This document shows, one piece after another, positions 10,104 to 36,266 of a stretch of 36,266 bases of DNA (positions are counted from its first letter, which is position 1; each line of letters opens with the position of its first letter). The notes below the pieces were generated by a model, which was given only the letters and a program-made list of their open reading frames with translations, searched no databases and was not told the origin of the DNA. This DNA comes from Rhodospirillaceae bacterium (lineage in GTDB: Bacteria > Pseudomonadota > Alphaproteobacteria > Rhodospirillales > Rhodospirillaceae): NCBI GenBank assembly GCA_020852595.1, contig JADZAK010000056.1, positions 1 through 36,266 on the forward strand. Reading direction: 5' to 3'. Made by a program: the position numbers and the translations under genes.

Positions 10104-13100
10104 GGGTCGGCACAATCTCATCTTCCGGGTTGCTGATCACATCCTCGGGCCCCTCACCGAACCGCGCGAACAGGATGGGCAGAAGCACGAGGGTCAGGAG
10201 AGTCGACGTAATAAGCCCGCCGATCACCACGATCGCCAAGGGACGCTGGATTTCCGACCCGGGCCCGGTGGCAAGCAGCAGCGGCACAAGACCGAAGGCG
10301 GTAATGCAGGCGGTCATGAGCACCGGACGCAGACGCCGCTCGGCGCCGTGCTTCACCGTTTCCATCATGTCGCGGCCTTCAGCGCGAAGCTGCAGGAAGT
10401 AAGCCACCATGACCAATCCGTTGAGCACGGCGATGCCGAGCAGCGCGATGAACCCAACCGAGGCCGGCACGGATAGATATTGGCCGGAGATCCACAGGGA
10501 AATGATACCCCCGACCATCGCGAAGGGAATGTTGACGAGGATGAGGACCGAAGCGCGCAGGGAGCGAAGAGTCACATAAAGCACGCAAAAAATCAGACCG
10601 AGCGCCACCGGGATCACAAGCAGCAGACGCGCCGCGGCACGCTGCTGGTTTTCAAACTGACCGCCCCAGACCATGGAATAGCCCTGCGGCAATTTCACCT
10701 TCGCCGCCACGGCGGCTTTGGCGTCGTCCACATAACCGACCAGATCGCGGCCGGAGACAAAGGCCTGGACGAGAGCATAGCGCAGGCCGTTTTCGTGGTT
10801 CAGACGCACCGGCCCTTCGACCTTCTGAATGCGCGCCATGTCGCTCAGCCGGGCGAGCGTGCCCTGCGGCGTGCGAAGCTGAACATCGGAAAAGAGCTCG
10901 TGATTGTCGCGGATTTCATCGCCGCCGCGCACCACCACCGGAACGCGGGCCTGGCCCTCGATGATGACGCCGGCGTTAATGCCATCAACCTGCGCACGCA
11001 ATGCATCGACCAGCGTGTCGAACGGCATGCCGTAGCGGCCGGCCGCCGCGCGGTCGAGGTCGAGCCGCAGATAATCCAAGGTGTCGTTGGCGGCGGTCAT
11101 GACTTCGGCCGCGCCGCGGACGCCCGATAAAACCGTCTGAACCTGACCGGCGAGATCGGAGAGCACGGCGTTGTCGGGACCAAAGATCTTCACCGCCAGG
11201 TCGCCACGCGCACCGGTGAGCATTTCAGACACACGCATCTCGATGGGCTGCGTGAAAGACGCCTCCATGCCCGGGATCGTCTCCATGACCTTGCGGAGCT
11301 CGTCGGTGATGAAGTCCTTGTCGCCGCGCCATTCGCCGGTCGGCTTCAGGACCATAAAAACATCGGTTTCATTGAAACCCATCGGATCGAGCCCGAGTTC
11401 GTCGGAGCCCATACGCGCGACGATCTGCTCGACTTCGGGGACAGCCGCCTTGATGGCGCGCTGCACCGCGAGGTCGGTCTGTACCGACGCTTTGAGGTTC
11501 ACGGAGGGAAGCTTGATCGTCTGCATGACGATGCTGCCTTCATCCATCGAGGGCATGAAGGTTTTTCCCACCAGAAGATAAGCACCGACCGCGGCCGCCA
11601 AACCGACACCCGAGACGATATAGACCACACGCTTATTGGCGAATGAGCGGTCGAGAAGCTTCTTGTACGCCGGCGCGATCTTGCGCATCAGCCAGGGCTC
11701 GCCGTGGCCGCCCGTCAACGCATAGGACGACAGTACGGGCACAAGGGTGAGCGCGATGACCAGGGATCCGACCAGCGCGAAGACGATGGTCAAGGCGACG
11801 GGCGAGAATAATTTTCCTTCAAGCCCCTCCAAGGTGAGCAGAGGCAGAAAGACCAGGGCAATGATCGCGATGCCGGCCGAGACGGGAACGATCACTTCCG
11901 CCACCGCCCGGAAGACCACGTTCAAGCGGGGGTGCTCTCCCTTGTGTTCATGCGTGAGGCGTTCGACCACGTTCTCAACGACGACGACGGCGCCGTCGAC
12001 GAGCATGCCGATCGCGATCGCGAGACCTCCCAGGCTCATGAGGTTCGCCGAAAGACCCGCCGCGCCCATGACGAGGAAGGTGATAAGCGCCGCCATGGGC
12101 AAGGTCGTCGCGACGATGGCCGCGGCGCGCCAATCGCCCAGAAATAGAATGAGAAGAATGACGACAAGGATCGTGGCCTCGATCAGCGCATGCTCGACCG
12201 TGGAAACGGCGCGCTCGATGAGATCGGACCGGTCGTAAAACACCTTCAGCGTCGTTCCCGGCGGCAAGGCCGGCTCAAGCTCCTTGATCCGCGCGCGTAA
12301 GCCGTCCACGACTTGCCGCGCATCCGTGCCGCGCAGGGATACGACCAGTCCCTCGACCACCTCGCCCTCGCCGTCCATTGTGACGGCGCCGTAGCGCGTC
12401 AGGCTGCTGATGCCGACAGTCGCCACGTCCCCCAGGCGGATCAAAGCGCCGTCGCGCGCCGCCAAGACCATATTCTCAAGATCGGCGGCGGACTGCGCCG
12501 CACCGACCGCGCGGACGATCAACGATTCCTCGCCCTCGTTGAGACGCCCCGCGCCGTCATTGCGGTTGCCGCGTTCGACGGCGTCGCGAAGGTCGCCGTA
12601 TGTCAGGCCCGTGACCGCCAGGGCGCGGGGATCGGGCTTGATCTCGAAGGTCTTGGCAAGGCCGCCGAGAGCGTTCACGTCGGCCACGCCGGGAACCGTG
12701 CGCAAGGCCGGACGGATCGTCCAATCGAGAAGCGTTCGCTTTTCGGTCAGGCTGAGAGGCCCTTCAATGGAGAACATGAACATTTCCGAAAGCGGCGTGG
12801 AGGCGGGCGCAAGTCCCCCGTCGACGACGCTCGGCAGGCTGCCCATCACGCCGGCGAGACGCTCACTCACCTGGGAGCGCGCCCAATAAATGTCCGTGCC
12901 GTCCGTGAAATCGATCGTGATGTCGGCGATGGCGTACTTGGCCATCGAGCGCAGCACCGTTTGCCGCGGGATGCCGAGCATCTCCATTTCGATCGGTGCG
13001 ATGACGCGCGTTTCAACTTCTTCCGGCGTCATGCCCGGCGCCTTCAGGATCATCTTGACCTGGGTCTGGGCGATATCCGGATAGGCGTCGACCGGAAGCC

Positions 13101-13197
13101 TCAGAAAAGACCAAAGCCCCAGCCCCGCCACGATCATCGTGAGCAACAGGACAAACAGGCGCGACGAGAGCGAGAGTTCGACCAGACGACGCAGCAT
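10096..13197 (-). CDS. Heavy-metal efflux RND pump (CzcA/CusA family)
   Basis: 1033 residues, the full length expected for a heavy-metal RND pump. It begins MLRRLVELSLSSRLFVLLLT (TM1) followed by the first periplasmic loop (VDAYPDIAQTQVKMILKAPG). TM2-6 lie between about residues 335 and 490, TM7 near 530, the second large loop follows, and TM8-12 lie at the end (about 860-1015). The TM4 motif reads AIGMLVDGAVVVVEN. The Asp-Gly pair is like the divalent-cation exporters (CzcA type) rather than the Asp-Ala of Cu/Ag CusA, so zinc, cobalt, cadmium or nickel are more likely, though this is inferred. The pump uses proton flow to move metal from periplasm or cytoplasm into the TolC channel. It lies 6 bp after the adaptor gene with AGGGG before its ATG. 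Confidence 0.93.
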   Translation of the reverse strand: MLRRLVELSLSSRLFVLLLTMIVAGLGLWSFLRLPVDAYPDIAQTQVKMILKAPGMTPEEVETRVIAPIEMEMLGIPRQTVLRSMAKYAIADITIDFTDGTDIYWARSQVSERLAGVMGSLPSVVDGGLAPASTPLSEMFMFSIEGPLSLTEKRTLLDWTIRPALRTVPGVADVNALGGLAKTFEIKPDPRALAVTGLTYGDLRDAVERGNRNDGAGRLNEGEESLIVRAVGAAQSAADLENMVLAARDGALIRLGDVATVGISSLTRYGAVTMDGEGEVVEGLVVSLRGTDARQVVDGLRARIKELEPALPPGTTLKVFYDRSDLIERAVSTVEHALIEATILVVILLILFLGDWRAAAIVATTLPMAALITFLVMGAAGLSANLMSLGGLAIAIGMLVDGAVVVVENVVERLTHEHKGEHPRLNVVFRAVAEVIVPVSAGIAIIALVFLPLLTLEGLEGKLFSPVALTIVFALVGSLVIALTLVPVLSSYALTGGHGEPWLMRKIAPAYKKLLDRSFANKRVVYIVSGVGLAAAVGAYLLVGKTFMPSMDEGSIVMQTIKLPSVNLKASVQTDLAVQRAIKAAVPEVEQIVARMGSDELGLDPMGFNETDVFMVLKPTGEWRGDKDFITDELRKVMETIPGMEASFTQPIEMRVSEMLTGARGDLAVKIFGPDNAVLSDLAGQVQTVLSGVRGAAEVMTAANDTLDYLRLDLDRAAAGRYGMPFDTLVDALRAQVDGINAGVIIEGQARVPVVVRGGDEIRDNHELFSDVQLRTPQGTLARLSDMARIQKVEGPVRLNHENGLRYALVQAFVSGRDLVGYVDDAKAAVAAKVKLPQGYSMVWGGQFENQQRAAARLLLVIPVALGLIFCVLYVTLRSLRASVLILVNIPFAMVGGIISLWISGQYLSVPASVGFIALLGIAVLNGLVMVAYFLQLRAEGRDMMETVKHGAERRLRPVLMTACITAFGLVPLLLATGPGSEIQRPLAIVVIGGLITSTLLTLVLLPILFARFGEGPEDVISNPEDEIVPTHG

Positions 13198-13203
13198 GAG
13201 CCC

Positions 13204-14262
13204 CTACTTCGCGAGCGCGAGAGATTTCAGTTCGCTGAGGCTGGTGACCACAACGTCTTCGCCGGCCTTGAGGCCGGACAGAATCACGATTTGCGCGCCC
13301 GCCGCGGTAGTGGCCTCGACTTTGCGGACAAGCACCCCGCCCTCCGCGCGCACAAAAACATATGTGTCGTCACCCAGTTCGGTCACGGCCGCGCGCGGAA
13401 CGCTGACCGCGGCGGTTTTGGACGTCGCATAAATCGCCGCGGATGCGGTACGCCCCGCGACAAGTTCGGTTCCCTTGGCGACCGCCGCTTTCAGCGCGGC
13501 CGAGCGCGTCTCGGGGTTCAGTACTTTGCCGACCGATGTCACCGTGGCCTCGATCTTCCCATCCACGACAACACGCATGCCCGGTTCGATCTTTCCGATC
13601 AGGCGTTCGGGCACCTGCGCTTGAATTTCGTACCGGTCGGTCGCGTCGACAACGAAGGCCGGCGCCATGCCGTCGACCGGCGCTCCGGTTTCAAGCCTGG
13701 CGGCAGCCACCACGCCGTCCAAAGGCGCGCTCAGCGTGTATGTGCCCTTGACGCCGTCGGCATTGACCGCGGCGAGCATGCGGGATTTTTCGTCCACCTC
13801 GGCGCGCGCCTGCTGATGCACGGCGTCGGCTTCTTCCGCGCGCGCGCCGGAGACAATTCCTTCTTCACTCAAGGTCGATTGGCGCTTTGCATTGGCGCCG
13901 GCGGCGGCGAGCCGGGCGCGCGCGCCCGCGAGCTCGGCCGACAATGTGAGAATTTCACGGCTGGCGATAATCGCGAGCGGTTGGCCCTTCTTGACCGCAT
14001 CGCCTTCGACGGCGAGAGTCTGCAACACGGTTCCGGGGAAGGTGGCCGCGACCGCGATCCGCGCATCGGGCGGCGGGGCAATCATCGCGGGCAGAGTTCC
14101 GACGAGATAGGCATCGGCCTTTTCCGCGGCCGCGAATTTGAGCGCCAGTCCCTTGACCTGCGCCGCCGAAAGCTCGAGCAAATCGGCCTTTTCCGCCGCC
14201 CGCGGCGCGCCGGCCCAAAGCGCCACGAGAATCGCCGATGTAATAAGTAATGTTCTTTTCAT
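13204..14262 (-). CDS. RND periplasmic adaptor (CusB/CzcB-like, HlyD family)
   Basis: 352 residues with an N-terminal signal (MKRTLLITSAILVALWAGAP...RAAEK). Domains follow the usual order: a barrel-sandwich/lipoyl half near residues 65-100 (GTVLQTLAVEGDAVKKGQPL), an alpha-hairpin with LSAELAGARARLAAAGANAK about 105-160, the second lipoyl half (YTLSAPLDGVVAAARLETGA), a beta-barrel (VPERLIGKIEPGMRVVVDGK) and a membrane-proximal domain ending LKAGEDVVVTSLSELKSLAL. It bridges the inner-membrane pump and the outer-membrane channel. No obvious His/Met-rich metal-binding N-terminus is present. The ATG follows AAGGGG. It is the first gene of the operon and diverges from the two-component regulator genes. 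Confidence 0.9.
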   Translation of the reverse strand: MKRTLLITSAILVALWAGAPRAAEKADLLELSAAQVKGLALKFAAAEKADAYLVGTLPAMIAPPPDARIAVAATFPGTVLQTLAVEGDAVKKGQPLAIIASREILTLSAELAGARARLAAAGANAKRQSTLSEEGIVSGARAEEADAVHQQARAEVDEKSRMLAAVNADGVKGTYTLSAPLDGVVAAARLETGAPVDGMAPAFVVDATDRYEIQAQVPERLIGKIEPGMRVVVDGKIEATVTSVGKVLNPETRSAALKAAVAKGTELVAGRTASAAIYATSKTAAVSVPRAAVTELGDDTYVFVRAEGGVLVRKVEATTAAGAQIVILSGLKAGEDVVVTSLSELKSLALAK

Positions 14263-14297
14263 GGTGCACCCCTTGGGCGGTTTTATAGCTGGCTAAT

Positions 14298-14351
14298 CCT
14301 GACAGCCGCCTGACAATTGTCAGCGGTTCTTCAGGAAGAGGTGCATATAAT
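14298..14351. promoter_or_regulatory. Divergent promoter and likely response-regulator box
   Basis: CCTGACA occurs at 14298-14304 and 14309-14315, an 11-bp step typical of OmpR/PhoB-type regulators. The second copy is part of a perfect 14-bp palindrome, CTGACAATTGTCAG (14310-14323). TATAAT at 14346-14351 is a consensus -10 for the regulator genes, but the matching -35 is poor, as in activated promoters. TATAAA (minus, about 14287-14282) could serve the efflux operon. TGACAA..TTGTCA resembles the CusR-type box, but here the half-sites abut. Confidence 0.65.
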
Positions 14352-14383
14352 AGTGATTATTAGTCGTTACGAGCGGGCACGGC

Positions 14384-15037
14384 GTGCGCATACTTGTCGT
14401 CGAAGATGAAACGGAACTCGCGACGCGCCTTGTCGCAAAGCTCGCGCAGCACGAGATGAATTGCGAATGGGTATCATCCGCAGAGGACGCGAAGCTGCTC
14501 GATGCCGGCGCCTTCAACGCGCTTGTGATCGACCTTGGGCTTCCCCGCGCGAGCGGACTCGATCTGATTCGTCATGTGCGCGCGCGTGGAGCGGCGACGC
14601 CAATCCTTGTGCTGACGGCGCGCAGCAGCTGGCAGGAAAAGGTCGAGGCCCTGAACGCCGGCGCCGACGATTATCTGGTGAAGCCCGCGCACGTCGAGGA
14701 ACTGGTGGCGCGCATGCGCGCGCTGGCGCGGCGCGCGGCGGGCCAAGTGCAACCGCAGCTCGTGGCCGGCCCGCTCACGCTCGATCCGTCCCTGAAGCAC
14801 CTGACCGTGAACGGAGAAGAAGTCAGCCTGACCGCCAACGAGTTTCGTCTGCTGTCGCTGTTCATGTACAAGCCGAAGCAGACTTTTTCATTGAATGAGA
14901 TTCTCGAGCACCTTTACCCGTTGGATCAGGACCGCGACCGTAATGCCGTGGAAGTCCTGATCGGACGCTTGCGGCGCAAGATCGGGCGCGAACTGATCGT
15001 CAATGTGCGCGGCCTCGGCTATCGGCTCATGGATTGA
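14384..15037 (+). CDS. OmpR/PhoB-family response regulator
   Basis: 217 residues from GTG 14384. The receiver domain (1-115) has the acidic pair E7/D8-E9, the phospho-acceptor D50 in LVIDLGLP, the Thr of LVLTARS and the Lys of DYLVKPAH near 100. The winged-helix domain (about 125-217) has LTANEFRLLSLFMYKP, LEHLYPLDQDRDRNAVEVLI and the RGLGYRLMD ending of the QseB/PhoP group. Phosphorylated by the kinase encoded just downstream, it would bind DNA as a dimer. Its place opposite a metal efflux operon suggests a metal- or envelope-stress-responsive switch like CusR, CzcR or CopR. The start has only a weak ribosome site. Confidence 0.92.
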   Translation: MRILVVEDETELATRLVAKLAQHEMNCEWVSSAEDAKLLDAGAFNALVIDLGLPRASGLDLIRHVRARGAATPILVLTARSSWQEKVEALNAGADDYLVKPAHVEELVARMRALARRAAGQVQPQLVAGPLTLDPSLKHLTVNGEEVSLTANEFRLLSLFMYKPKQTFSLNEILEHLYPLDQDRDRNAVEVLIGRLRRKIGRELIVNVRGLGYRLMD

Positions 15038-15039
15038 AC

Positions 15040-16401
15040 ATGACCATGCTTCTTCCTCAGTTCAAAAGCCTGCGGGTACGCTTCCTGTTCGCCGCGCTGT
15101 TGTGGGTGAGCGTCGCGACCGCCGTCGCGGGCGTCGTGATTTCGTACCTCTACCGCTCGCACCTCACCGATCAATTCCATAACGAACTCGATATCCATCT
15201 GGTGGAACTGATCCGCCTGTCGGAAACGGATGATAGGGGCAATCCCACATTGGACCGCCCTTTGTCCGATCCGCGTTTCCAGATGGAGAACAGCGGCTTC
15301 TATTGGCAGATCGAACGCGCCGGCTATCAAACGCTGAAGTCTTCGACCCTTGGCGAACAAAATCTCGACGGCCGTTTCGCGCGCGGCATCCAGGAGAAGA
15401 TGGACTGGGCCGACGGCCCGAACGGTGAAGTCCTGATGTGCGGTATTTCGGCGCCGTCGCGGACCGGCGGACCGGCGTTGAATTTCACCATAGCGGTGGA
15501 ACGCCGCATCCTTGATGAAGCCATCGCGGGGTTCAATCGCGACCTCACGGTCTCACTGACCGTCTTCGCGCTGTTGATGCTGGCCGGCGCGACCTTGCAG
15601 ACTATTTACGGTCTACGGCCCGCGCAGCGCATCGCCGACGACATCGAACGCCTGCGCCGGGGCGACGTGCCCAGGCTTTCCTCCGACGCGCCGGCGGAAT
15701 TCAGCGGCATCGTCACACGCCTCAACGCCCTGCTCGACAATCAATCGGCCCTCGTGCAGCGCGCGCGGGTGGAAGCGGGTAATCTGGCCCATGGTCTCCG
15801 TACGCCGCTGGCCCTCATCGCGGACGAAGCCGAGCAATTGGCGCGCAAGGGCGACGACACGGCGGCGGCCTTCATTCAGGCGCAATGCCGCAAAATCAGC
15901 CGGCAGGTGAACTACCACATGATGCGCGCCCGCGCGGCGGGCACACGCATGACCAGCTTCGCGGCGGGCATTCAGACCGTCGTGCAGAACATCGTCGGCG
16001 CGATGCGGCGCCTGCACGCCAGCCGCAATCTTTCCTTTGTCGTCGACATCCCCACGGGGCTGACCGTGAACTGCGACGAAGGCGATCTTTCGGAGATCCT
16101 TTCGAATTTGATCGACAACGCCTGCAAGTGGGCCCGCACGAGCATCAGGATCGCGGCGCGGCACGGCGAGGACGGCATTGTGATCGAAGTCACCGACGAC
16201 GGTCCGGGCATCGCCGACGACATGCGCGATAAGGTGTTCGACGTGGGCGCGCGGCTCGACGAGGGCAAAGCCGGGAGCGGGCTGGGTCTCGCCATCGCGC
16301 GCGACCTCGCGCGGCTTTATGGGGGCGATCTCGAACTCGAGAAAGCCTTCAGCGGCGGCCTGCTGGCACGGTTACGTTTCCCGGACGTCAGCGCCGCATA
16401 A
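15040..16401 (+). CDS. Sensor histidine kinase, PhoQ-like
   Basis: 453 residues from ATG 15040, 2 bases after the regulator stop. TM1 spans about residues 12-36 and TM2 about 165-190, bounding a periplasmic sensor of about 130 residues rich in Asp/Arg. A HAMP-like segment (GLRPAQRIADDIERLRRGDV) precedes the H-box AGNLAHGLRTPLALI with phospho-accepting His251. The N-box is NLIDNACKWA, the G1 box DDGPGIADD and the G2 box GSGLGLAIA, so the kinase looks active. The HGLRTPLA form is that of PhoQ-type kinases. Its periplasmic part lacks an obvious metal-binding motif (no His/Met cluster), so the signal is not certain; metal is inferred from the adjacent efflux operon. Confidence 0.9.
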   Translation: MTMLLPQFKSLRVRFLFAALLWVSVATAVAGVVISYLYRSHLTDQFHNELDIHLVELIRLSETDDRGNPTLDRPLSDPRFQMENSGFYWQIERAGYQTLKSSTLGEQNLDGRFARGIQEKMDWADGPNGEVLMCGISAPSRTGGPALNFTIAVERRILDEAIAGFNRDLTVSLTVFALLMLAGATLQTIYGLRPAQRIADDIERLRRGDVPRLSSDAPAEFSGIVTRLNALLDNQSALVQRARVEAGNLAHGLRTPLALIADEAEQLARKGDDTAAAFIQAQCRKISRQVNYHMMRARAAGTRMTSFAAGIQTVVQNIVGAMRRLHASRNLSFVVDIPTGLTVNCDEGDLSEILSNLIDNACKWARTSIRIAARHGEDGIVIEVTDDGPGIADDMRDKVFDVGARLDEGKAGSGLGLAIARDLARLYGGDLELEKAFSGGLLARLRFPDVSAA

Positions 16402-27238: not shown

Positions 27239-27288
27239 GTCGCGCGGCCGGGCGGAAAACCGGTTTCCGCTTTTCCTGGCCGCGCGAC
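27239..27288. terminator. Long palindrome between convergent genes (repeat family, probable two-way terminator)
   Basis: GTCGCGCGGCC (27239-27249) pairs perfectly with GGCCGCGCGAC (27278-27288), and inside it GGAAAA (27254-27259) pairs with TTTTCC (27271-27276). Five more pairs of AT-rich sequence extend the stem past a mismatch. It lies after the Bcr/CflA gene and includes part of the tamB stop codon. The inner GGAAAACCGGTTTCC core matches the other palindromes. Confidence 0.78.
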
Positions 27289-30200
27289 TAATAATCCTTC
27301 CGCCAGAACACGCCGATATCGGCGCCCGTAACGTCGCTGGTCGTGGACTTCAGCGAGAATGAGCGCGAGAGCCGCCATTCCACGACAATCTCGCGTTCCT
27401 GTTCGGTCAGGCTCTGCCCCACGCTGACATAGAGATTGCGGCCGATCTGGCGGCCCACCATGACTGAATTGCCTTCGGCTCCGGCGCTGACGTCGACACC
27501 CAATGTGCGGCGAAGAACGCCGTTGATGCCGCCGTTTGAAATGCCCGCAAGGTCGGACGCCGCGCTCGCGAGCTGAATGGACTCGATGGGGCCGAGCTCG
27601 CCGGTGCCTTTGCGGAACAGAAGGCGGGCGAGGATTTCGTCGCGCGGCAAGGCGGGGCGGGACGTGAGCTGAACCGCGGGCGCGCGGGCGCGGCCTGTGA
27701 TGTTCACGGTCGCGGTAATGTCGGAAGCTTCGCGCACGGCGACGATATTGAGCTGTGGATCGATGGTGCCGCCGCCGGTGAAGGTGACCGTGCCGCTATC
27801 CAAGGTGAACGACTGGCCGAGGAACGAGAACGAGCCGCGATCAAGGGTGAGCGTACCACGCACGTCCGGGACCGAGAGAGAGCCGACGACATTCATCTGG
27901 CCGCGCCAGAGGGAATCGAGTCCCTGGCCCTCGATGCGCATGGGATTCGAGGTCGTGACCCCGATGTCGAGGGTGATCCCGGCGAACATGCCGTCGTTGC
28001 GCACCGGCTCGAACCCGGGCAGCGCGCGCAGCAGCGGGATGTCGGGCATATAACTGCCGCCAAGCCGCACGAGCGAATTCACCATCTGGACATTGCCTTT
28101 GAATTGGCCGGCGGCGAAGGGACCGGTATAGGTGATTTTGCCGGTGGCGGCGGCGATCACATCGTCGCGGTGCAGAACATCGAGGCGCGACATGTCGGCC
28201 GTGATGTCGGCGGTGAGTTTCTCGTCGTTGGCGATACGGCCCGACAGCGTGACGTTGCCGTCGTTCATGTCCTGCGCCTTCATGAAGAGCGTGAAGCCGC
28301 CCCTTTCGTCGCCGCCGATCGCGGCTTCGATGTTGCGCAAGGCGGTGCCGCCGACCAGGCTCTCATACGTGCCGTTGGTGAGGTTGAAGGCGCCTGCGAG
28401 CACGGGAGCGTCCAGTGTGCCCGACAGCGAAGCGTCGATCGTCACATCGCCGGCGAGAACGTTCACATCGGACGGGATGAGCCGCCAAAGCGGCGTCAGA
28501 CTTCCTGCCCACTTCAACGTCCCGCTCACGGGCTCGGTCGTGATCAGCGCGAAACGCGCCGCCGCGAGGTCGAGCCGCGCGGGCACATCCGCGGTCAGGA
28601 AGGCCGGCTCCCTGGAAAGCCCGCCGGCCGTCGCATTCACCCTGGCCCGCCCATTGTTGAGCGCGAGGACGGCCGAAAGCGCGAGGGGCGGCTGATCTTT
28701 CGTGCCGGGAAGCGTGCCGGTGAGATTGGCCGCGCCGTTCACGGCGTTCATCGGGCCGGCAAGCGTCACATCGCCGCTCACGATCATGGATGTGGTCTGG
28801 CCGGGGATCGCCGTGAAGGCGGGCAGCGAAACCTTCTGCGCGTGGAACGCGCCCTCGAAGATGTCCGTGACCTTGTTCCAGGTGAAGCCGGCTTGCAGTT
28901 CGCCATCGTTGACCGATACACGCGTCGGCGCGAGGGTCATGGCGTCGGCGCTCACGGTGAGCTGCGTGGGCGCCAGGAGCGCGACTTTGAGATCACCGTC
29001 CTGACCCGCGAGGCGCTGGAAGGCGATGGTCGTGGACGCGCCGAAGGCGATGTCCGTGGCCGATGTCAGCGCGAACGGCGTATCGCCGGCGCCCCTGGCC
29101 TCGGCGACGACTTTGAGCGCATTCAGATCGCCGTCGGCGCGCGTGTTGAAAGCGGCAAGCGGGCGGTCGAACAGCCGCGCGCCCGTGGCCGTCGCACGGG
29201 TTGAAATCCTTACATCCCCAAAGAGGTCGTCGAAACGTCCCGTGAAACTGAGAGTCTCGGCGACCAGCGCCGCATTTTCGACCTTGTGGCCGGCCAGGGT
29301 CACATCGAGGCGCTGGTCCTTGGCGGCGCTGAAGGCCGCGGTGACATCGGCGCTGCCGGCGGACGCGGCGCCGAAAGCGGTGGTAAGCGGCACGAGATCG
29401 CTGACGGGGCCGTTGAGACCACCCGTCAGGTGTCCCGTCTCGGTCGCGATTTGAAGACCGCCTGAAAGGTCCGTGGCCGGGCTTTTCCAGGTGATCCCGG
29501 CGACGTCGATAATCCCGGCTTCGGTTTGAGACACTTTGGCCGAGAAGGCGAGCGGGCCGTCGATCCACTGACCGTTTCCGTCGAGGGCCGCGGCGAAGCC
29601 CGCCGGTGTCCGGTCGAGCGCCACCGCAACGACCGCATCGCGCACGGGGGCGCGGGACAGGAGGATCACGGGCGCCGTGGCGGAGATCTCCGCGTGAAGG
29701 GTGGCAAGCGGCCCCTTGAGAGTCACGTCGGCCTGCGTGGGTTCAGGCAGGATCGTGGCCCCGGGGGGAAGGATGACGGTGAGCGCCGAGCTCGTGTGAT
29801 CGAAGCGCGGTGCGCGCGCCCAGGCGCTGGCGCCGCGGATTGCCGCACCGCCGGAGCGCGCCGCGATATTGGTGAAACTCACTTGGCCGGCCCCGAGCGC
29901 GATGTCGGCTTCGAGGTTGAGATGATCTTGCAGCAGCGGCCGGATGCCGGCGGCGGGCGGAAGTCCCGTCAGGACGAGCGAAAGATGTCCGGCGCCCACG
30001 CCGCCTTCGTCCAACCGATCGACGCGCAAGCTGGCGTCGGTCCGCGACACGGAATCGCTCAACCCGAGGAAACGCCCGCCGCCTTTCAGAGAAAGTTTGA
30101 GAGTTGCCGGAGTCAGCTTGGGCGTGAGACCGAGCCCGGCGATCTGCGCGCTCGCATCTCCCGTTTCCAGGGCGGCGGCGTCGAGCACAAGCGTGCCGTC

Positions 30201-31211
30201 AGGTGAACGCGAAAGGCCGAAGGACCATTTGCCCGCCTCGCCCACGAGCGGGCGGCCTTCCGGCAAAGCTTCCGGCACGCCCGTCGCCGTACCCGCGCCG
30301 GTGATGGCGATGACACCTTGCGGCGCTTCGGCCTTGGGGCGCGCGCTGATTTGGCCTTCCAGGGCCGTGAGTTTGCGCGCGTCGAAGGCGAGATCTTGCG
30401 CGCGGAAATCGATCCGGCCTTCAGGGGATTGCAGCGTCCCCGCCAGCGCAAGGTCGGCGGTGACCGCGCCGATCCGGCCGCTGGGCCAGGCAAAACAAAC
30501 CGTTTCACCGCGGCAGTTCAATTTCAACGCGCCCGAGAGTGCGTTGCTACGGTTATTGATGGTGATGGCGCCGGCGGCGGTGACGGTCTCCGCCGCGGCA
30601 TTCACCTGAACGACCGCGGCATTGCGGCCGGCGGCGAACTTGAGCGCGATCGAACCCGGCTCGCTGCGCAGGCGGCCGTCGAGCGAGAGTGTATGCAGCT
30701 TGCTGGCAGGATCGTCTTGAAGGCTGGCGGTGAGAGTCGCGTCGACCTGGCGGCCCATCACCGGGGGATCGAGAAGGAGAATGCCCACGCGCGCCTCGCG
30801 CACGGTGATTCCCTTGAGCGCACGCGCGATTGCGTCAACCGTGGGCGGCGGCGACGGCGCACGGTTGGGCGTGCCGGCCGGTTGACGCAGCATATGCGCC
30901 GTACCGGCGACAGCGCTGTCGATCTCGGCACCGCCGGTGAGGAGCGCTCCCGGCCGTAAACGCAGCTCCAGGCGATCAAGCGTCAGCCAGACGCCTTCGC
31001 GGTCGCTGACGGCGATGCCTGTCCAGATGATGTGGAACGGCCATTCGCCGCCCACTTCCTTCACGGTGATCGTCTGATCGCCTCCGCCAAGGGCCCGCGT
31101 GATGCGATCCGTGAGGAAACGTTGGCCGCCGGGCGCGGAGACAAGGAGCCCGGCGCCCGCACCCAGCAAAGCGAGGACGATCAGGACCGCGGCGATAACC
31201 TTCATACGCAT
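27288..31211 (-). CDS. tamB: TamB, inner-membrane-anchored bridge of the translocation and assembly module
   Basis: 1307 residues starting MRMKVIAAVLIVLALLGAGA, an N-terminal membrane anchor. The rest is a long series of short beta strands (a beta-helix or taco-like groove) seen as repeated L.L.G/A.V....L patterns with few charges. It ends in a conserved TamB C-terminal part: GTLTLDRGSFSFLGQSFTLD, FTGGGTIDPQLNIVAVREAS, and the final FWRKDY. By family it spans the periplasm, helping outer-membrane protein or lipid transport with TamA. Its ATG overlaps the tamA stop (TGATG) by one base, so the two are coupled. Its stop codon falls inside the palindrome at 27239-27288. Confidence 0.92.
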   Translation of the reverse strand: MRMKVIAAVLIVLALLGAGAGLLVSAPGGQRFLTDRITRALGGGDQTITVKEVGGEWPFHIIWTGIAVSDREGVWLTLDRLELRLRPGALLTGGAEIDSAVAGTAHMLRQPAGTPNRAPSPPPTVDAIARALKGITVREARVGILLLDPPVMGRQVDATLTASLQDDPASKLHTLSLDGRLRSEPGSIALKFAAGRNAAVVQVNAAAETVTAAGAITINNRSNALSGALKLNCRGETVCFAWPSGRIGAVTADLALAGTLQSPEGRIDFRAQDLAFDARKLTALEGQISARPKAEAPQGVIAITGAGTATGVPEALPEGRPLVGEAGKWSFGLSRSPDGTLVLDAAALETGDASAQIAGLGLTPKLTPATLKLSLKGGGRFLGLSDSVSRTDASLRVDRLDEGGVGAGHLSLVLTGLPPAAGIRPLLQDHLNLEADIALGAGQVSFTNIAARSGGAAIRGASAWARAPRFDHTSSALTVILPPGATILPEPTQADVTLKGPLATLHAEISATAPVILLSRAPVRDAVVAVALDRTPAGFAAALDGNGQWIDGPLAFSAKVSQTEAGIIDVAGITWKSPATDLSGGLQIATETGHLTGGLNGPVSDLVPLTTAFGAASAGSADVTAAFSAAKDQRLDVTLAGHKVENAALVAETLSFTGRFDDLFGDVRISTRATATGARLFDRPLAAFNTRADGDLNALKVVAEARGAGDTPFALTSATDIAFGASTTIAFQRLAGQDGDLKVALLAPTQLTVSADAMTLAPTRVSVNDGELQAGFTWNKVTDIFEGAFHAQKVSLPAFTAIPGQTTSMIVSGDVTLAGPMNAVNGAANLTGTLPGTKDQPPLALSAVLALNNGRARVNATAGGLSREPAFLTADVPARLDLAAARFALITTEPVSGTLKWAGSLTPLWRLIPSDVNVLAGDVTIDASLSGTLDAPVLAGAFNLTNGTYESLVGGTALRNIEAAIGGDERGGFTLFMKAQDMNDGNVTLSGRIANDEKLTADITADMSRLDVLHRDDVIAAATGKITYTGPFAAGQFKGNVQMVNSLVRLGGSYMPDIPLLRALPGFEPVRNDGMFAGITLDIGVTTSNPMRIEGQGLDSLWRGQMNVVGSLSVPDVRGTLTLDRGSFSFLGQSFTLDSGTVTFTGGGTIDPQLNIVAVREASDITATVNITGRARAPAVQLTSRPALPRDEILARLLFRKGTGELGPIESIQLASAASDLAGISNGGINGVLRRTLGVDVSAGAEGNSVMVGRQIGRNLYVSVGQSLTEQEREIVVEWRLSRSFSLKSTTSDVTGADIGVFWRKDY

Positions 31212-33055
31212 CAGAAGGCCTGCCCGAAGCTGACGTAGAACTGCCAGGACTTGTCGACACCGTTTCGCCGGTTCAGCGGCATCGCGAAGTCGACGCGCAA
31301 GGGGCCCGCGCCGGTGTAGTAGCGCGCGCCGATCCCGGCGCCGACGCGGATATCGCCGTCGCCGCCCGGAAGGCCGCCGCGCGAGACCATGCCCGCGTCG
31401 ACAAACGGTACGACGCCGATGGTGTCGGTGATGCGGATCCGCGCCTCGGCGCTGGTTTCAATCAGCCCGCGCCCGCCCATCGGTGCGTTATCGGCGTCGA
31501 GCGGGCCGACGAGCTGATAGCCGAACCCGCGGATGGACCCGCCGCCGCCGGCATAGAAGCGTTTATTGGCCGGAATATCGTCGGTGCGCTCGCCGAGCAG
31601 GCTGCCGACTTTGACCCGCCCCGCGAGGATCAGGCGATCACCGCGCAACATCGGCCAGTAGCCGTCCACCTCGGTTTCCAGATGCGCGAAGGTCACCGTG
31701 CCGGCGTAACGGCCGACATAAGGCGTGATATTGGTGCGCAGACGCCAGCCGCGTGTCATTTCGACCACGAGGCGCTCGTCCACGGCGCGCGAGACGCCCA
31801 CGGGGAGGCCCACGAGGTAGGAATTGCGCTCGACGCCGTCCTCGGTGAGCGCGGCGAATTCGAACGTCGCGCCGCCCGCGACGCGCCAGAGATCGTTCAG
31901 CTTGCGTTCGACAGCGCCGCGCAGGGCGCCGCTGTATTCGGTGAAGGCTTCAGTGTCTTCATGATGGCCCGTCGCGCCAAGCTTCAATATGTTCCGGCGG
32001 TCGAGGAAACCCGGTTTATCGAGTGAGAGTTCGGCGGTCTGGTCGAGCTTGTTGCCGTCGAGATTGGCTTCGAACCGCTCGCCGTTGCCGAAGAGATTGC
32101 GGTGACGCCAATAGGCCGACCCGCCGATGCCTTTGTCGCGCGCGTACGTCACACCCGTCCCGATGGAGCGCTGCGGCCCTTCGGCGACAACGACATTCAC
32201 ATCCAAGGGCGAGCCGTTCTCCGGCACGCTCATATCGGCGGGTTCGACGCGCACGGAGGTGAAGAGAGACGCGAGAATCAAATCTTGGCGGAATGCGTCG
32301 AGCGCCTTGAGGCTGAAGATATCGCCCGCCGGCCAAGGCACGAGGCGTTGCATGTGGGATTCGTTGACGCTCTCGAGGCCCGAGAAATGCGTCGCGCCAA
32401 AAAACGCCTGATGTCCCAACTCCACCGGCAGATTGACCGCGACCGTGTGCGCCGCGTGGTCCACGTCCAGCTGACGGTCGCCGCGTTTGGCGAACGGAAA
32501 GCCTTTCGCGCGAAGGAGATCGAGCGCCGTGTCTTCGGCCAGGATGACGTCGGCGGCGCGCGCGGGCCGGCCGACAATATCCTTCAGCGGCGTTTCGTAG
32601 TCCTCGGGCTTGATGAGCGCGACGGTCCCGGGCTCTTCGCGCGCGAGGTCGAAAACGACCGAGGTCACCGCGTAGCGCGGACCGGGATCGACCGTGACCG
32701 TAACGGCCACACGCCCCTTCTCGTCCTTCGTCGACGTGATGACCGTGGCCGCATAGTAGCCTTCGGACTCCAAAGCCGCCCGGAAGCGCTGCTCATCGCG
32801 CATGATGCGCTGGCCGAGGGCCGCGAGAGTCATCGGCGGACTACTACGTAAGCGGACGAGTTGCGAGGATTCCTTCAAGAGCGATTCAACCCCGCCGCCG
32901 GGCGCGCCTTCGATAGCGACCGTGTAGGCGATCGGGCCCTCGGCCGACGTGATCTCGGCCGGCGGCGCCTCGGCGGCAAAGACCGGGCCCGACAGCATCG
33001 TCGTCACGAGGAGGGCCGCCCAAAACAATCGCGATAACTTCTTCGGTGGGATCAT
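31211..33055 (-). CDS. tamA: TamA, Omp85-family outer-membrane assembly protein
   Basis: About 614 residues from ATG 33055, chosen because it gives a clean signal peptide (MIPPKKLSRLFWAALLVTTM...GPVFAAEA); frames further upstream have no such signal. About three POTRA domains (residues 30-260) precede a 16-strand barrel. The Omp85 RGF motif is present in GGSIRGFGYQLVGPLD, and the chain ends QFYVSFGQAF with the C-terminal Phe. ATHFSGLESVNESHMQRLVP is a POTRA-like strand-helix. It inserts in the outer membrane and works with TamB. The gene order tamA-tamB is the usual one. It diverges from the pterin-like cluster over 163 bp, where I saw no strong promoter. Confidence 0.9.
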   Translation of the reverse strand: MIPPKKLSRLFWAALLVTTMLSGPVFAAEAPPAEITSAEGPIAYTVAIEGAPGGGVESLLKESSQLVRLRSSPPMTLAALGQRIMRDEQRFRAALESEGYYAATVITSTKDEKGRVAVTVTVDPGPRYAVTSVVFDLAREEPGTVALIKPEDYETPLKDIVGRPARAADVILAEDTALDLLRAKGFPFAKRGDRQLDVDHAAHTVAVNLPVELGHQAFFGATHFSGLESVNESHMQRLVPWPAGDIFSLKALDAFRQDLILASLFTSVRVEPADMSVPENGSPLDVNVVVAEGPQRSIGTGVTYARDKGIGGSAYWRHRNLFGNGERFEANLDGNKLDQTAELSLDKPGFLDRRNILKLGATGHHEDTEAFTEYSGALRGAVERKLNDLWRVAGGATFEFAALTEDGVERNSYLVGLPVGVSRAVDERLVVEMTRGWRLRTNITPYVGRYAGTVTFAHLETEVDGYWPMLRGDRLILAGRVKVGSLLGERTDDIPANKRFYAGGGGSIRGFGYQLVGPLDADNAPMGGRGLIETSAEARIRITDTIGVVPFVDAGMVSRGGLPGGDGDIRVGAGIGARYYTGAGPLRVDFAMPLNRRNGVDKSWQFYVSFGQAF

Positions 33056-33218
33056 CAGCGAAAAGGTAAAAGCCCTGCGCCGGGCTGAACAGCTACTGGG
33101 GTTTTTTGTGACAGAACGCCCGGCAACCAGCAATGGCCCGGTGAGCCCTGGATTTTTTTACACCTGTTACTTGCGCGCCTGAACCCTTAGCTTCGGGGCC
33201 CTTCGAGGAGCGGTGCCC

Positions 33219-34181
33219 ATGTCTCATAGCGATGCCCTTTGGTACACGGCCCCGGGCCGGGTCGAGCGCCGGACGGTCGAACTCCCGGCTGCGGGCGACG
33301 TGACCCTTGAGGCGCTTTACTCCGGAATCAGCCGCGGGACCGAAACCCTGGTGCTGCACGGCCGGGTCCCCCCCAGCGAGCATCTGCGCATGCGCTGCCC
33401 CCTGCAGGAAGGCGATTTCCCCTTCCCGGTCAAATACGGCTACGCGCTGGTGGGACGGATCGTGGAAGGCCCGGCGGAGTTGAAGGGCGAGACTGCGTTC
33501 GTGCTACACCCGCACCAGCGCACCGCGCGCGTGCCGCTGTCTTTCGTGCGGCCGCTGCCCAAGGGCCTGCCGCCGAAGCGCGCCTGCCTCGCGGCCAATA
33601 TGGAAACCGCACTGAATATCACCTGGGATGCGCAGCTGACCCCGGGGCAGAAAGTGCTGATCGTCGGCGGCGGCGTGCTGGGCCTTCTGACGGCGGCGGT
33701 CGCGGCTCTTGTGCCGGACACGAAGGTCACGGTTGTCGATGTGCTGGCGACACGCGCCGACGTTGCGCAAAAAATGGGCGCAGGTTTCTCCTTGCCGGCA
33801 ACAGCGCCGACGAACCAGGATGTGGTGATCCACACCAGCGCAACCGAGGATGGCCTGCTGCGCGCCCTGGAATGCGCCGCCTTCGAAGCGAAGATCGTGG
33901 AAGCGAGCTGGTACGGCGCGCGCAAGGTCACCCTCCCGCTCGGCGCCGCCTTTCACGCGCAGCGCTTGCAGATCGTTTCCTCGCAAGTGGGCAGCGTCGC
34001 GCCAAGCCATCGCGGCAGCGTCAGCCATGCGGAGCGGATGGCGCGCGCCCTCGATCTTCTGCGGGACGAAAAATACGACACCCTTATCACGGGCGAGATC
34101 CCGTTCGACGACGCGCCAAAGCGATTGCCCGCCGTGCTGAGCGGTGATAGCTCAGACCTCATGACAGTCCTGCGTTACTAA
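33219..34181 (+). CDS. Zinc-less MDR-family dehydrogenase, BchC-like
   Basis: 320 residues from ATG 33219. GAGGAG lies 8 bases upstream; GTG 33213 is too close to it. It is a medium-chain dehydrogenase/reductase with a GroES-like half (LEALYSGISRGTETLVLHGR at 31-50) and a Rossmann half (VLIVGGGVLGLLTAAVAALV at 147-166, then the acidic VVD near 172-174 that selects NAD). The usual zinc Cys of SGICGTD is Ser36 or Ser39 in SGISRGTE, and the GHE motif is absent, so no catalytic zinc is expected. The SGISRGTE form resembles BchC-type bacteriochlorophyllide dehydrogenases, but no other pigment genes are here. It begins a compact four-gene run with PTPS-like, glycosyltransferase and methyltransferase genes, so it likely oxidises or reduces a hydroxyl on their common product. 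Confidence 0.85.
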   Translation: MSHSDALWYTAPGRVERRTVELPAAGDVTLEALYSGISRGTETLVLHGRVPPSEHLRMRCPLQEGDFPFPVKYGYALVGRIVEGPAELKGETAFVLHPHQRTARVPLSFVRPLPKGLPPKRACLAANMETALNITWDAQLTPGQKVLIVGGGVLGLLTAAVAALVPDTKVTVVDVLATRADVAQKMGAGFSLPATAPTNQDVVIHTSATEDGLLRALECAAFEAKIVEASWYGARKVTLPLGAAFHAQRLQIVSSQVGSVAPSHRGSVSHAERMARALDLLRDEKYDTLITGEIPFDDAPKRLPAVLSGDSSDLMTVLRY

Positions 34182-34191
34182 AGGAAAATCC

Positions 34192-34611
34192 ATGTACTTC
34201 GTTGAAGTCCGCGATCATGTGATGATCGCCCATAGCATCCCGGGCGAGGTTTTTGGCCCGGCCCAGAAGCTGCACGGCGCGACCTATGTGATCGACGTCT
34301 GTTTCATGCGCGAGAAACTCGATGAATACGACATCGTGGTGGACATCGGCCTTGCGACGGACACGGTGAAGCAGATCCTGTCGTCGCTCAATTTCAGCAA
34401 CCTCGACGAACACCCCGACTTCAAGGGCCGCCGTTCGACGACCGAAGCCGTGGCGCGGTGGGTGTTCCTGCGGGTGCAGGACGCCATCAATGCGGGCCGC
34501 CTGGGCCCCTCGGCCGCGGGGCTCAAGCGCCTGAGGATCATGCTGCATGAATCCCATGCGGCGCGCGCCGGCTTTGAAGCCGACTTATCTTCCCAGGCGG
34601 TTCATGCCTGA
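34192..34611 (+). CDS. PTPS/QueD-fold protein with altered active site
   Basis: 139 residues from ATG 34192, with AAGGAAAATCC upstream. The T-fold of 6-pyruvoyl-tetrahydropterin synthases is clear: IAHSI near 12-16, KLHGATYVIDV, VVDIGLATDTVKQIL, TTEAVARWVF and the closing LHESH. The pterin-anchoring Glu (E120 in LHESH) and E85 are present, so a pterin or purine-like ligand could still bind. By eye alignment to E. coli QueD, the catalytic Cys is Ala24, the Asp-His pair is Asn67-Phe68, and the zinc motif HGH is HGA, leaving only H14 and H28. It should therefore not be a classical PTPS or 6-carboxytetrahydropterin synthase. The end overlaps the glycosyltransferase gene by 8 bp. Confidence 0.87.
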   Translation: MYFVEVRDHVMIAHSIPGEVFGPAQKLHGATYVIDVCFMREKLDEYDIVVDIGLATDTVKQILSSLNFSNLDEHPDFKGRRSTTEAVARWVFLRVQDAINAGRLGPSAAGLKRLRIMLHESHAARAGFEADLSSQAVHA

Positions 34612-35659
34612 GGTCTGGTTCGCCATACCCGGCGACCCAGAGACCCTCACGGGCGGATATGTCTACGCGCGCCGGCTGATGGACGCGCTGCCGGGCGCCG
34701 GGTGGACGCCGCGGCGCCTGTCCTGGCCGGGCGCGTTCCCGTATCCCAGCGAAGAAGACCTCAAGGCCGTCCGCGCCAGCCTGGAAGCGCTGCCGCCGCG
34801 CGCCACCGTTTTGATCGACGGCCTTGCCTACGGGGCGTTGCCCACGTCCGTCCTCGATGGATTGAATGTGCGCATCGTCGCGCTGGTGCATCATCCGCTG
34901 GCGCGCGAAAGCGGCATTGCGTCCGCTGAAGCCGCGCATTTCGAAAAGACCGAGCGCGCCGCGCTGACATTTGCGCAGCGCGTGGTGGTGACAAGCCCGG
35001 CGACCGCGCAAACGCTCACGCAGGACTTCGGCGTTCCCCAAAACAAAATTCACATCGCCTTGCCCGGAACGGAGCGCGCGGCCCGCGCGCAGGGCGCCGG
35101 AGACGTTCCGCTCATTCTCACCGTCGGCACACTGACGCCGCGCAAGGGTCACGACGTGCTGATCGCGGCGCTGGCGGAGGTCGCGGATCTTCCGTGGAAA
35201 AGCGAGATCGTCGGCAGCAGGGAGCGCGATCTCGCGACCACGGCGCTGCTGCGCAAACTCATTGAACATCACGATCTGGGCCGGCGCGTCACCTTGGCCG
35301 GCGAGATGAACGGCGATGCGTTGCGCGGCGCCTATGGCCGTGCGGACATCTTCGCGTTGGCTTCGCGTTATGAAGGTTACGGCATGGTGTTCGCCGAAGC
35401 CCTTGCTCATGGCCTACCCGTCGCCGCCTGCGCCGCCGGGGCGGTGACCGAAACCGTGCCGAAAGACGCCGGCCTTCTGACGCCGCCCGACGATGTGCGC
35501 GCCTTTGCCGGTACGTTGCGGCGGATGCTGAACGACTGCGCGCTGCGCGCAAAGCTGGCGGACGCCGCTTGGCGTCACGGACAGGCGCTGCCGCAATGGA
35601 GCGACACCGCCCATGCCGTTGCAAACGCGCTGAACCTGACCTTGGAGGCCGCGGCATGA
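34604..35659 (+). CDS. GT4-type glycosyltransferase
   Basis: 351 residues from ATG 34604, overlapping the PTPS-like gene. Two Rossmann-like halves (GT-B fold): the acceptor side with [20 protein letters not shown] and [11 protein letters not shown], the donor side with [20 protein letters not shown] near 171-190 and the EX7E motif (E257...E265) in [18 protein letters not shown]. That motif holds the nucleotide-sugar donor in GT4 enzymes. No membrane segment, so the product is probably a soluble molecule made in the cytoplasm. It is translationally coupled to its neighbours, which points to a small acceptor handled by the same pathway, such as a pterin. The sugar is unknown. Confidence 0.88.
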
Positions 35660-36266
35660 GCGGCTTCTCGCCGGAATGGTTGGCTCTGCGCGAGCCCGCC
35701 GATCTTACGGCGCGCAATCGCCAGGTTCTTACGGCGTGCGGGCGCGCCTTCGAGGACAAGGACAGCATCGATGTCTGCGACATCGGCGCGGGGACCGGCG
35801 CTTCCGTCAGGGCGCTGGTGGATCTGTTGCCGCGCCGCCAGTTCTGGACTCTGGTCGACAGCGACGCCGACAATCTGTCGGCGGCCTATCAGCAACTCGC
35901 GCGCTGGGGCAGCGACGTGAAAGCCTATGACGGCGGCCTGATGCTGCGTAAAGGCGGGCGTGAGCTTTATATCCGCACGCATGTCTGCGACCTCGCCGCG
36001 ACACCGGCCTGTTGGCCCAAGGGCACGGACCTCGTCACCGCGTCGGCCTTGTTCGATCTGACCTCGGCGCGCTGGCTGGATGCGTTTGTCGCCCTGCTCG
36101 CGGCGCAGAAGGTTTCTTTATTGAGCATGCTGACGTTCGACGGCTTGATCGCCGCCGAACCGGAGCATCCGCTCGACCGCGCCGTGGCCGATGCGTTTTG
36201 CGGCCATCAGCAACGCGACAAGGGCTTCGGCCCCGCCGCCGGCCCGCGCGCGGCCGAGGTGCTGGA
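35656..36266 (+). CDS. SAM-dependent methyltransferase, partial (runs off right edge)
   Basis: At least 203 residues from ATG 35656, which overlaps the preceding TGA (ATGA). It begins [20 protein letters not shown], and motif I is [20 protein letters not shown], followed by [11 protein letters not shown] and [20 protein letters not shown]. This resembles the trans-aconitate-methyltransferase-like class I group without matching a characterised substrate. No signal peptide. As the fourth tightly coupled gene of the set it would methylate the same small molecule that the dehydrogenase and glycosyltransferase handle. The 3' end and any further genes lie outside the window. Confidence 0.82.

Follow-up and report, generated by a model that had tools for sequence, protein, structure and literature searches.

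A conserved operon built around a PTPS-IV protein in a Rhodospirillaceae bacterium, probably part of a GTP-derived pathway to a pterin-like molecule

The end of a contig of a Rhodospirillaceae bacterium (GenBank assembly GCA_020852595.1, contig JADZAK010000056.1, here C56) raises the question of what a PTPS-fold protein might make in the company of a dehydrogenase, a glycosyltransferase and a methyltransferase. An earlier note had described four same-strand genes joined by an 8-bp overlap, an ATGA overlap and a 10-bp gap, and the ORF coordinates agree with this description. The window, by which we mean the whole stretch of 36,266 nucleotides that was analyzed, is the entire contig, one of 259 in the assembly. 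The four genes are:

33219..34181, + strand, MDR-family dehydrogenase, 320 aa (ORF and domain search)
34192..34611, + strand, PTPS-fold protein of the PTPS-IV type, relative of SCO6650 (PF01242, motif and PDB match)
34604..35659, + strand, GT4-family glycosyltransferase (PF00534)
35656..36266, + strand, class I SAM-dependent methyltransferase, first 203 codons (model of the relative in locus L021)

Ten bases separate the dehydrogenase gene from the PTPS gene, which overlaps the GT4 gene by 8 bases, and the last two genes share an ATGA. An upstream ATG at 34547 provides an alternative start for the GT4 gene.

The remainder of the cluster in the source genome

Since the window is a whole contig, the operon that was said to run off the window in fact reaches a contig end: the methyltransferase gene is cut there, and its remainder (77 codons and a stop) was found at the end of contig C154. 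C154 also carries genes for a GTP cyclohydrolase II (GCHII, RibA), a RibD-type reductase, a creatininase-family hydrolase, a CDP-alcohol phosphotransferase, an LtaS/EptA-like enzyme and cytochrome b561. In L021, from a genome of the same genus, the operon and the C154-type genes are contiguous in one locus, and the methyltransferase is 91% identical to that of the window. A search for RibA- or FolE-type GTP cyclohydrolase genes downstream, as advised by the earlier note, returned an enzyme of type II (RibA), rather than of the FolE type, with a RibD-type reductase on the abutting contig. The envelope-type genes lie past the contig end and were therefore out of sight of the earlier note. The C154 RibA and RibD are extra copies, as the source genome has a riboflavin operon on C47 (gene names assigned by eye) and another GCHII on C78. 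On C94, QueE- and QueC-like genes (also named by eye) flank another PTPS gene.

Conservation of the cluster and related systems

We compared 102 loci comprising 6 of 21 plasmid matches, 20 of the 22 non-own close-genome matches, the source genome's own contig C154 and 75 genome loci, the latter taken from the best 80 of 569 matches after five copies of loci already included had been dropped. The order dehydrogenase-PTPS-GT4-methyltransferase was found on one strand in 82/101 loci. Because of how they were selected, these loci lean to close relatives, and an even draw of Pseudomonadota is the fairer test; there the same order was found in 23 of 26 loci, at least two of which (L138 and L143) may repeat HMM training loci (L069 and L116). 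The GT4 and methyltransferase genes are absent after the PTPS gene in the even-draw loci L151 and L153. The four-gene arrangement, recurring as it does on one strand in other loci, is not due to chance. The predicted conservation of gene order was therefore borne out, and a failure of the four homologues to co-occur, which would have spoken against the earlier reading, was looked for and not found. Among the 73 loci with full flanks (at least 7.5 kb before and at least 8.5 kb after the PTPS start), the dehydrogenase (72), GT4 (71), methyltransferase (69) and RibD (60) form a near-constant core.

PTPS-IV is present in 27 of the 398 Pseudomonadota species of the even draw (about 7%, source genome included). 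Cluster-type RibD (E <= 1e-50) was detected in 24 of these 27 genomes and in 0/371 others (Fisher p 1.5e-35, uncorrected for phylogeny); in one drawn genome it lies about 62 kb away from the PTPS gene. It is missing from G126, whose locus lies close to the end of its contig, and from G422 and G432. NF006456 was tried as a marker of the cluster RibA and rejected: it matches 41/398 genomes (E <= 1e-80), including four of genus f62/g151 without PTPS-IV, in which the RibA surroundings contain none of the other cluster families except a weak GT4 match (32 bits) 7 kb away. Records labelled Actinomycetota, Acidobacteria and Gemmatimonadetes also yielded PTPS relatives, and Methylosinus trichosporium OB3b is one of the strains with the cluster. 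Among the 21 plasmid matches, the one from Haloarcula shows 25% identity and may be of another type.

Part of this neighborhood is already in print. PTPS-IV was described with AGeNNT (PMC5445326) as a COG0720 subfamily (cluster-node 62, 561 sequences) with an FGPAQ motif and neighbors of families PF00925 and PF01872; the window cluster shares the motif and both neighbors, which the source genome carries on the abutting C154. In section 19 of that paper no product is given, and the neighbors named include none of the dehydrogenase, GT4, methyltransferase, phosphotransferase and hydrolase types; PF00925 is called GTP cyclohydrolase I / FolE2 there, whereas the enzyme of the window-type cluster is of type II. 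Our finding therefore extends a known orphan cluster.

The sole PDB match of the window PTPS (E <= 0.001) is 3d7j, which is SCO6650 of Streptomyces coelicolor (139 bits). SCO6650 in turn matches, with 267 bits, the PTPS of a plasmid cluster of Streptomyces fungicidicus that combines the dehydrogenase-PTPS-GT4-methyltransferase set with CDP-alcohol, creatininase and RibA genes. The two clusters differ in that the window type has cytochrome b561 and the LtaS/EptA-like enzyme, and in that its RibA shares the Tyr of E. coli RibA, which is replaced by Met in the Streptomyces fungicidicus protein. According to Spoonamore, SCO6655, with Met, reportedly makes a formylamino product, and SCO6650 is said to lack zinc and PTPS activity.

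Conserved residues and family assignments

The window PTPS scores 74.5 bits against PF01242 (cut-off 22.4) and carries the PTPS-IV motif FGPAQxxHGAT. Of 128 PTPS sequences, 127 share the signature [FY]GPAQxxHGAT, the window protein among them, the exception being L084, which reads FGPGQ. HGH is replaced by HGA in all 128, which also retain His14, His28 and Glu120 (numbering of the window protein); Gly22 is equally invariant, the CxxxxxHGH motif of PTPS-II (biopterin type) is lacking, and Ala occupies the cysteine position of CxxxHGH in 127/128. In PTPS enzymes this Glu anchors the 2-amino/4-oxo edge; PTPS-IV keeps it and has lost one zinc histidine. With HGA and without the QueD or PTPS-II cysteine, those reactions are unlikely for a PTPS-IV protein. 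The window protein remains below the QueD cut-off (41.8 vs 89.25 bits) and likewise below that of 6PTHBS. A QueD/queuosine role was rejected on account of the motif, these cut-offs and the existence of a separate PTPS with QueE-/QueC-like neighbors on C94.

The dehydrogenase scores below its Pfam cut-off (22.1 vs 31.8). Its best NCBIfam family is TIGR01202 (bchC), matched by 22/22 members, yet the window protein reaches only 54.2 bits against a cut-off of 291.25 and is not assigned to BchC. Ser38 and Tyr73-Gly74-Tyr75, invariant in the 22 aligned members, occupy the positions at which the catalytic zinc ligands of MDR enzymes are usually found, and with these replaced the enzyme is probably zinc-less. 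The GT4 protein is a clear PF00534 member (97 bits vs 26.4) whose best solved relative is the Tll1590 protein (92.8 bits), followed by D-inositol 3-phosphate glycosyltransferase and phosphatidylinositol monomannoside mannosyltransferase (52-54 bits). The methyltransferase scores below its Pfam cut-off (22.2 vs 27); the predicted model of its L021 relative (pLDDT 97) has a class I methyltransferase fold, and sequence and fold comparison gave general class I relatives only.

The C154 RibA scores 179 bits against PF00925 (cut-off 23.3) and exceeds the NF001591 cut-off (226 vs 148), and falls just under TIGR00505 (203.4 vs 205.85) and under NF006456 (395 vs 464). The zinc cysteines are kept, with the C-x10-C-x-C motif in 49/49 cluster RibA proteins, and 46/49 have the same Tyr as E. 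coli RibA. RibA lies inside the fetched stretch in 38/73 full-flank and 11/26 even-draw loci; as it is often outside, a GCHII encoded elsewhere may serve. The C154 RibD-like protein has a RibD_C domain (109 bits vs 24.1), the domain search reported no deaminase domain on it, and scores under TIGR00326 (89.8 vs 156.35) and TIGR00227 (106.7 vs 150.15) set it apart from riboflavin RibD; its best solved relative is 2,5-diamino-6-ribosylamino-pyrimidinone phosphate reductase. The C154 hydrolase belongs to the creatininase family PF02633 (208 vs 31.3) and scores far below the ArfB family NF033501 (27.4 vs 180). We rejected, as a general rule, the idea that it is a deformylase required by a RibA that goes no further than the formyl stage: 22 loci with creatininase and 24 without have the RibA Tyr. 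Creatininase presence does not track loss of this Tyr.

The envelope-type neighbors are variable. The CDP-alcohol enzyme is present in 43/73 full-flank and 12/26 even-draw loci, the LtaS/EptA-like enzyme in 32/73 and 5/26, and OpgH in 22/73 and, with the short loci L148 and L154 left out, 12/24. Such variation means that an envelope step may be a lineage habit. LPG_synthase_TM was found only together with the CDP-alcohol enzyme (21/21 among the 73 loci, 10/10 among the 24), and Alphaproteobacteria, Gammaproteobacteria and Actinomycetota all have clusters with adjoining CDP-alcohol genes. In the 73 loci, OpgH and the CDP-alcohol enzyme appear to exclude each other (both, OpgH only, CDP-alcohol enzyme only, neither: 1/21/42/9, p 2.4e-10) and do not in the 24 even-draw loci (4/8/7/5, p 0.41), so that the exclusion is probably a lineage effect. 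The model of the LtaS/EptA-like protein, a 'sulfatase' by label (pLDDT 90.6), shows N-terminal helices and an alkaline-phosphatase-type domain. Its best Foldseek matches are MCR-1, LtaP, GacH and LtaS, at modest query-normalized TM-scores of 0.36-0.48, with PbgA/YejM, a sulfamidase and an alkaline phosphatase lower down; a search of the PDB with its sequence profile gave no useful match. As modeled, with a membrane part, a phosphatase-type domain and phosphotransferases as nearest folds, the protein is by fold of the LtaS/EptA phosphotransferase type. Its relatives share an invariant Ser in GGxSW and an invariant GDH; the usual catalytic nucleophile of LtaS/EptA-type phosphotransferases is Thr.

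A candidate pathway and its alternatives

The four window genes are probably the tailoring half of a dedicated GTP-derived pathway. To judge from family membership and conserved residues, the cluster GCHII would open GTP to 2,5-diamino-6-(phosphoribosylamino)pyrimidin-4-one, and the RibD-type reductase would reduce the ribosyl chain of this or a related intermediate. As the RibD-like protein has no deaminase domain, the 2-amino group would stay, making the product pterin-like rather than lumazine- or flavin-like. The PTPS-IV protein may then bind the pyrimidine or a derived pterin for a zinc-independent ring or side-chain step, the dehydrogenase may oxidize a side-chain hydroxyl, and the GT4 enzyme and the methyltransferase would add a sugar and a methyl group. 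Depending on the lineage, the CDP-alcohol phosphotransferase, the flippase-like LPG_synthase_TM protein and the LtaS/EptA-like enzyme could place the product in the envelope or attach it there; alternatively a neighboring OpgH could do so. In the envelope, electrons may pass between the product and cytochrome b561. The pterin product proposed earlier gains from the nearby GTP cyclohydrolase and RibD. It loses from a PTPS unlikely to perform QueD or PTPS-II reactions and from a riboflavin-type cyclohydrolase, with which an open diaminopyrimidine is possible. Riboflavin synthesis shares the RibA and RibD families and the expected starting nucleotide with the cluster and differs in its RibD and, in the source genome, in its separate operon. 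In the part of PMC7109123 considered here, the 8-azaguanine ptn cluster likewise builds a secondary product on a GTP-derived diaminopyrimidine; it starts from a GCH I homologue and an NO synthase, and PTPS, GT4 and RibD are not named.

On these grounds we lean towards an orphan GCHII branch whose product is a 2-aminopyrimidine or pterin bearing a sugar and a methyl group, perhaps one that serves the envelope. The product could instead be a soluble cofactor or pigment of the same chemistry with the phospholipid- and glucan-type neighbors unrelated, which we regard as rather unlikely: the core enzymes are near-constant and every envelope-type gene is variable, as a soluble product would have it, but the tie of LPG_synthase_TM to the CDP-alcohol enzyme and the recurrence of CDP-alcohol genes at the cluster in three lineages argue otherwise. 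A bolder form of the envelope proposal, a new class of envelope-anchored pterin made via GCHII instead of FolE, glycosylated and methylated, linked by a phosphodiester to lipid or to periplasmic glucan, and serving there as redox carrier for cytochrome b561, is speculative and in our estimate unlikely.

The remaining readings carry still less weight. RibA and RibD might supply a ribitylamino-pyrimidine from which an F420- or flavin-like compound is built; such a precursor fits both neighbors, and a passage of PMC5041015, citing unpublished data, says that PTPS-IV acts in archaeal F420 synthesis. The lack of a deaminase domain, together with the absence of lumazine synthase and FO synthase among the recurring families identified, which cover about half of 28 clusters, makes a flavin or deazaflavin analogue improbable. 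Slightly less probable again is a locus for an envelope glycan or phosphoglycan, with the PTPS-fold protein, RibA and RibD serving a ribitol-type sugar-alcohol precursor rather than a pterin: GT4, the CDP-alcohol enzyme, the LtaS/EptA-like enzyme and OpgH would suit it, whereas the RibA cysteine motif and the PTPS-IV Glu120 are kept although a pure sugar route has no need of them, and neither OpgH nor the CDP-alcohol enzyme is constant. A duplicate queuosine, folate or biopterin route has in its favor the PF01242 domain and the name 6-carboxytetrahydropterin synthase given to most annotated plasmid relatives (among the 21 matches); with the sub-cut-off scores, the HGA and Ala substitutions, the separate PTPS on C94 and GCHII- and RibD-type neighbors, it is hardly credible. 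An already known compound as product, which would also have undone the earlier reading, was not found.

The cluster probably represents a widely conserved pathway from GTP to a pterin-like compound that carries a sugar and a methyl group and may end up in the cell envelope. Annotation mostly labels its key PTPS protein as a queuosine-type enzyme. A solved structure of the PTPS-IV type exists (3d7j), and with a defined, portable gene set and GTP as the expected precursor the product can be looked for directly. Should it turn out to be an envelope pterin, bacteria would have a cofactor of a new kind.

The four-gene operon and its probable other half

Four genes on one strand make up the operon at the 3' end of the window:

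33219-34181, same strand as the other three: dehydrogenase (Pfam match under the curated cut-off)
34192-34611, same strand: PTPS-fold protein (well supported by Pfam)
34604-35659, same strand: GT4 glycosyltransferase (well supported by Pfam)
35656 onward, same strand: methyltransferase (Pfam match under the curated cut-off)

Both the shared strand and the spacing described in the earlier note are borne out by these coordinates. The window is the entire contig C56 (36,266 bases) of a genome assembled in 259 contigs. The methyltransferase gene is completed on another of them, C154 (12,165 bases), whose end carries its final 77 codons and stop codon on the minus strand. Before this end C154 carries genes for cytochrome b561, a RibD-type reductase, GTP cyclohydrolase II (GCHII), a creatininase-family hydrolase, a "sulfatase" and a CDP-alcohol phosphotransferase; a GTP cyclohydrolase gene, which the earlier note proposed seeking downstream, was thus present. 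In a same-genus genome, G002, the C56 operon and the C154 genes form a complete set in one locus, L021. Given this arrangement and the position of the methyltransferase end, C56 and C154 very likely abut; a search for an exact overlap between their ends found none longer than 5 bases.

Divergent from the operon, on the minus strand (27288-33133), lie genes named by eye as TamB-like (1307 aa) and TamA/BamA-like (640 aa). Among the collected loci, tblastn matched the TamA-like gene only in L004, L006, L021, L023 and L052, all same-genus, so that its pairing with the operon looks local. The window also holds an apparent RND efflux set of the heavy-metal type (8536-16401), made up of an outer membrane factor, an RND pump of 1033 aa, an adaptor and a sensor-like protein, all named by eye.

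Conservation across genomes

The PTPS gene was present in 23 of 41 genomes (the source genome and close relatives), in 21 plasmid records (Alphaproteobacteria and Actinomycetota, a single gammaproteobacterium and, as a weak match, an archaeon) and at no fewer than 569 places in a species-level genome collection. The order dehydrogenase-PTPS-GT4-methyltransferase, whose conservation the earlier note proposed checking, was recovered, on one strand, in 82 of 101 loci with PTPS and in 23 of the 26 loci, other than our own, from evenly drawn Pseudomonadota genomes. The exceptions among the 101, several of which are short contigs, lacked the fourth gene (10), the GT4 gene (5) or a called dehydrogenase (3), or were arranged otherwise (1).

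Loci with each gene (full-flank loci, n=73; even-draw loci, n=26)
Core: dehydrogenase 72, 26; GT4 71, 25; methyltransferase 69, 24; RibD 60, 22
Variable: CDP-alcohol 43, 12; RibA 38, 11; LtaS/EptA-like 32, 5; cytochrome b561 26, 7
Further: creatininase 23, 6; OpgH 22, 12; LPG_synthase_TM 21, 11; FkbM-type 18, 8

OpgH (MdoH), where in the stretch, is mostly immediately upstream and divergent (e.g. L015 5079-6881, L093 7038-8840).

The even draw yielded PTPS-IV, the subfamily of the window protein, in 27 of 398 genomes including our own (cut-off E ≤ 1e-20; all 27 at E ≤ 3e-54), and the other 26 cover 11 families. Cluster-type RibD, searched at E ≤ 1e-50 in all 398, was found in 24 genomes, all among these 27, and in 0 of the 371 without PTPS-IV; G126, G422 and G432 have PTPS-IV without RibD at this threshold. 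In G056 the RibD gene lies ~62 kb from PTPS, which argues that the link is more than proximity. By this co-occurrence, a GTP-derived core of the pathway is well supported.

The PTPS-fold protein and the proposed GTP-derived core

In PTPS enzymes a Glu anchors the pterin and zinc is bound by three histidines. All 128 PTPS sequences compared share His14, His28, Asp51, Asn70-Leu71-Asp72, Glu85 and Glu120, and every one of them reads HGA where QueD has its HGH motif. The only PDB match of the window protein at E ≤ 0.001 is SCO6650 of Streptomyces coelicolor (3d7j). PMC5445326 gives the FGPAQ motif as the signature of PTPS-IV. A second PTPS-family gene of the source genome, on contig C94 (L168 1020-1391), is flanked by QueE- and QueC-like ORFs (neighbours named by eye); its QueD-like product has Asn at the Cys position of the CxxxHGH motif.

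A Pfam domain search saw no deaminase domain in the RibD-like enzyme, whose closest solved relative, at 78 bits, is a 2,5-diamino-6-ribosylamino-pyrimidinone phosphate reductase; together these features suit a product retaining the 2-amino group. In the cluster GCHII (RibA) the GCHII domain is preceded by ~185 residues in which Pfam found nothing at E ≤ 0.01, and the position of the E. coli Tyr is occupied, in 49 such proteins, by Tyr (46), Met (1, Streptomyces) or Ile (1), with one unread. Three genes of the source genome are of the GCHII type: one in the cluster, one in the C47 riboflavin operon and one on C78. In the C78 stretch L051 3631-7085 this GCHII, 43% identical to the cluster RibA, is encoded near another cytochrome b561. 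In the RibBA-like protein of C47 (L050 4655-5791) the GCHII part looks degenerate by eye, with no zinc-cysteine motif visible, and the C78 enzyme may therefore be the housekeeping GCHII.

Envelope-type genes and known systems

The predicted structure of the "sulfatase" (the LtaS/EptA-like protein of the counts above) comprises a membrane domain and a second domain that, among solved folds, most resembles phosphoethanolamine and phosphoglycerol transferases, though the TM-scores are modest; sulfamidase ranks lower. Together with the CDP-alcohol phosphotransferase and LPG_synthase_TM it points weakly to a role in moving lipid head groups within the envelope, but these genes vary among loci. MacAB-like ABC exporter genes (L049 2807-6219, named by eye) adjoin the CDP-alcohol gene, likewise in several same-genus loci.

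Full-text searches of open-licence papers turned up no description of this gene set. The cluster extends both the SCO6650-type cluster and the PTPS-IV neighbourhood known from network analysis, and for neither do the texts examined name a product. Compared with the riboflavin route, it would work like a side branch. The gene cluster is real, widespread and genetically coupled, and a pterin is a plausible product of the pathway.
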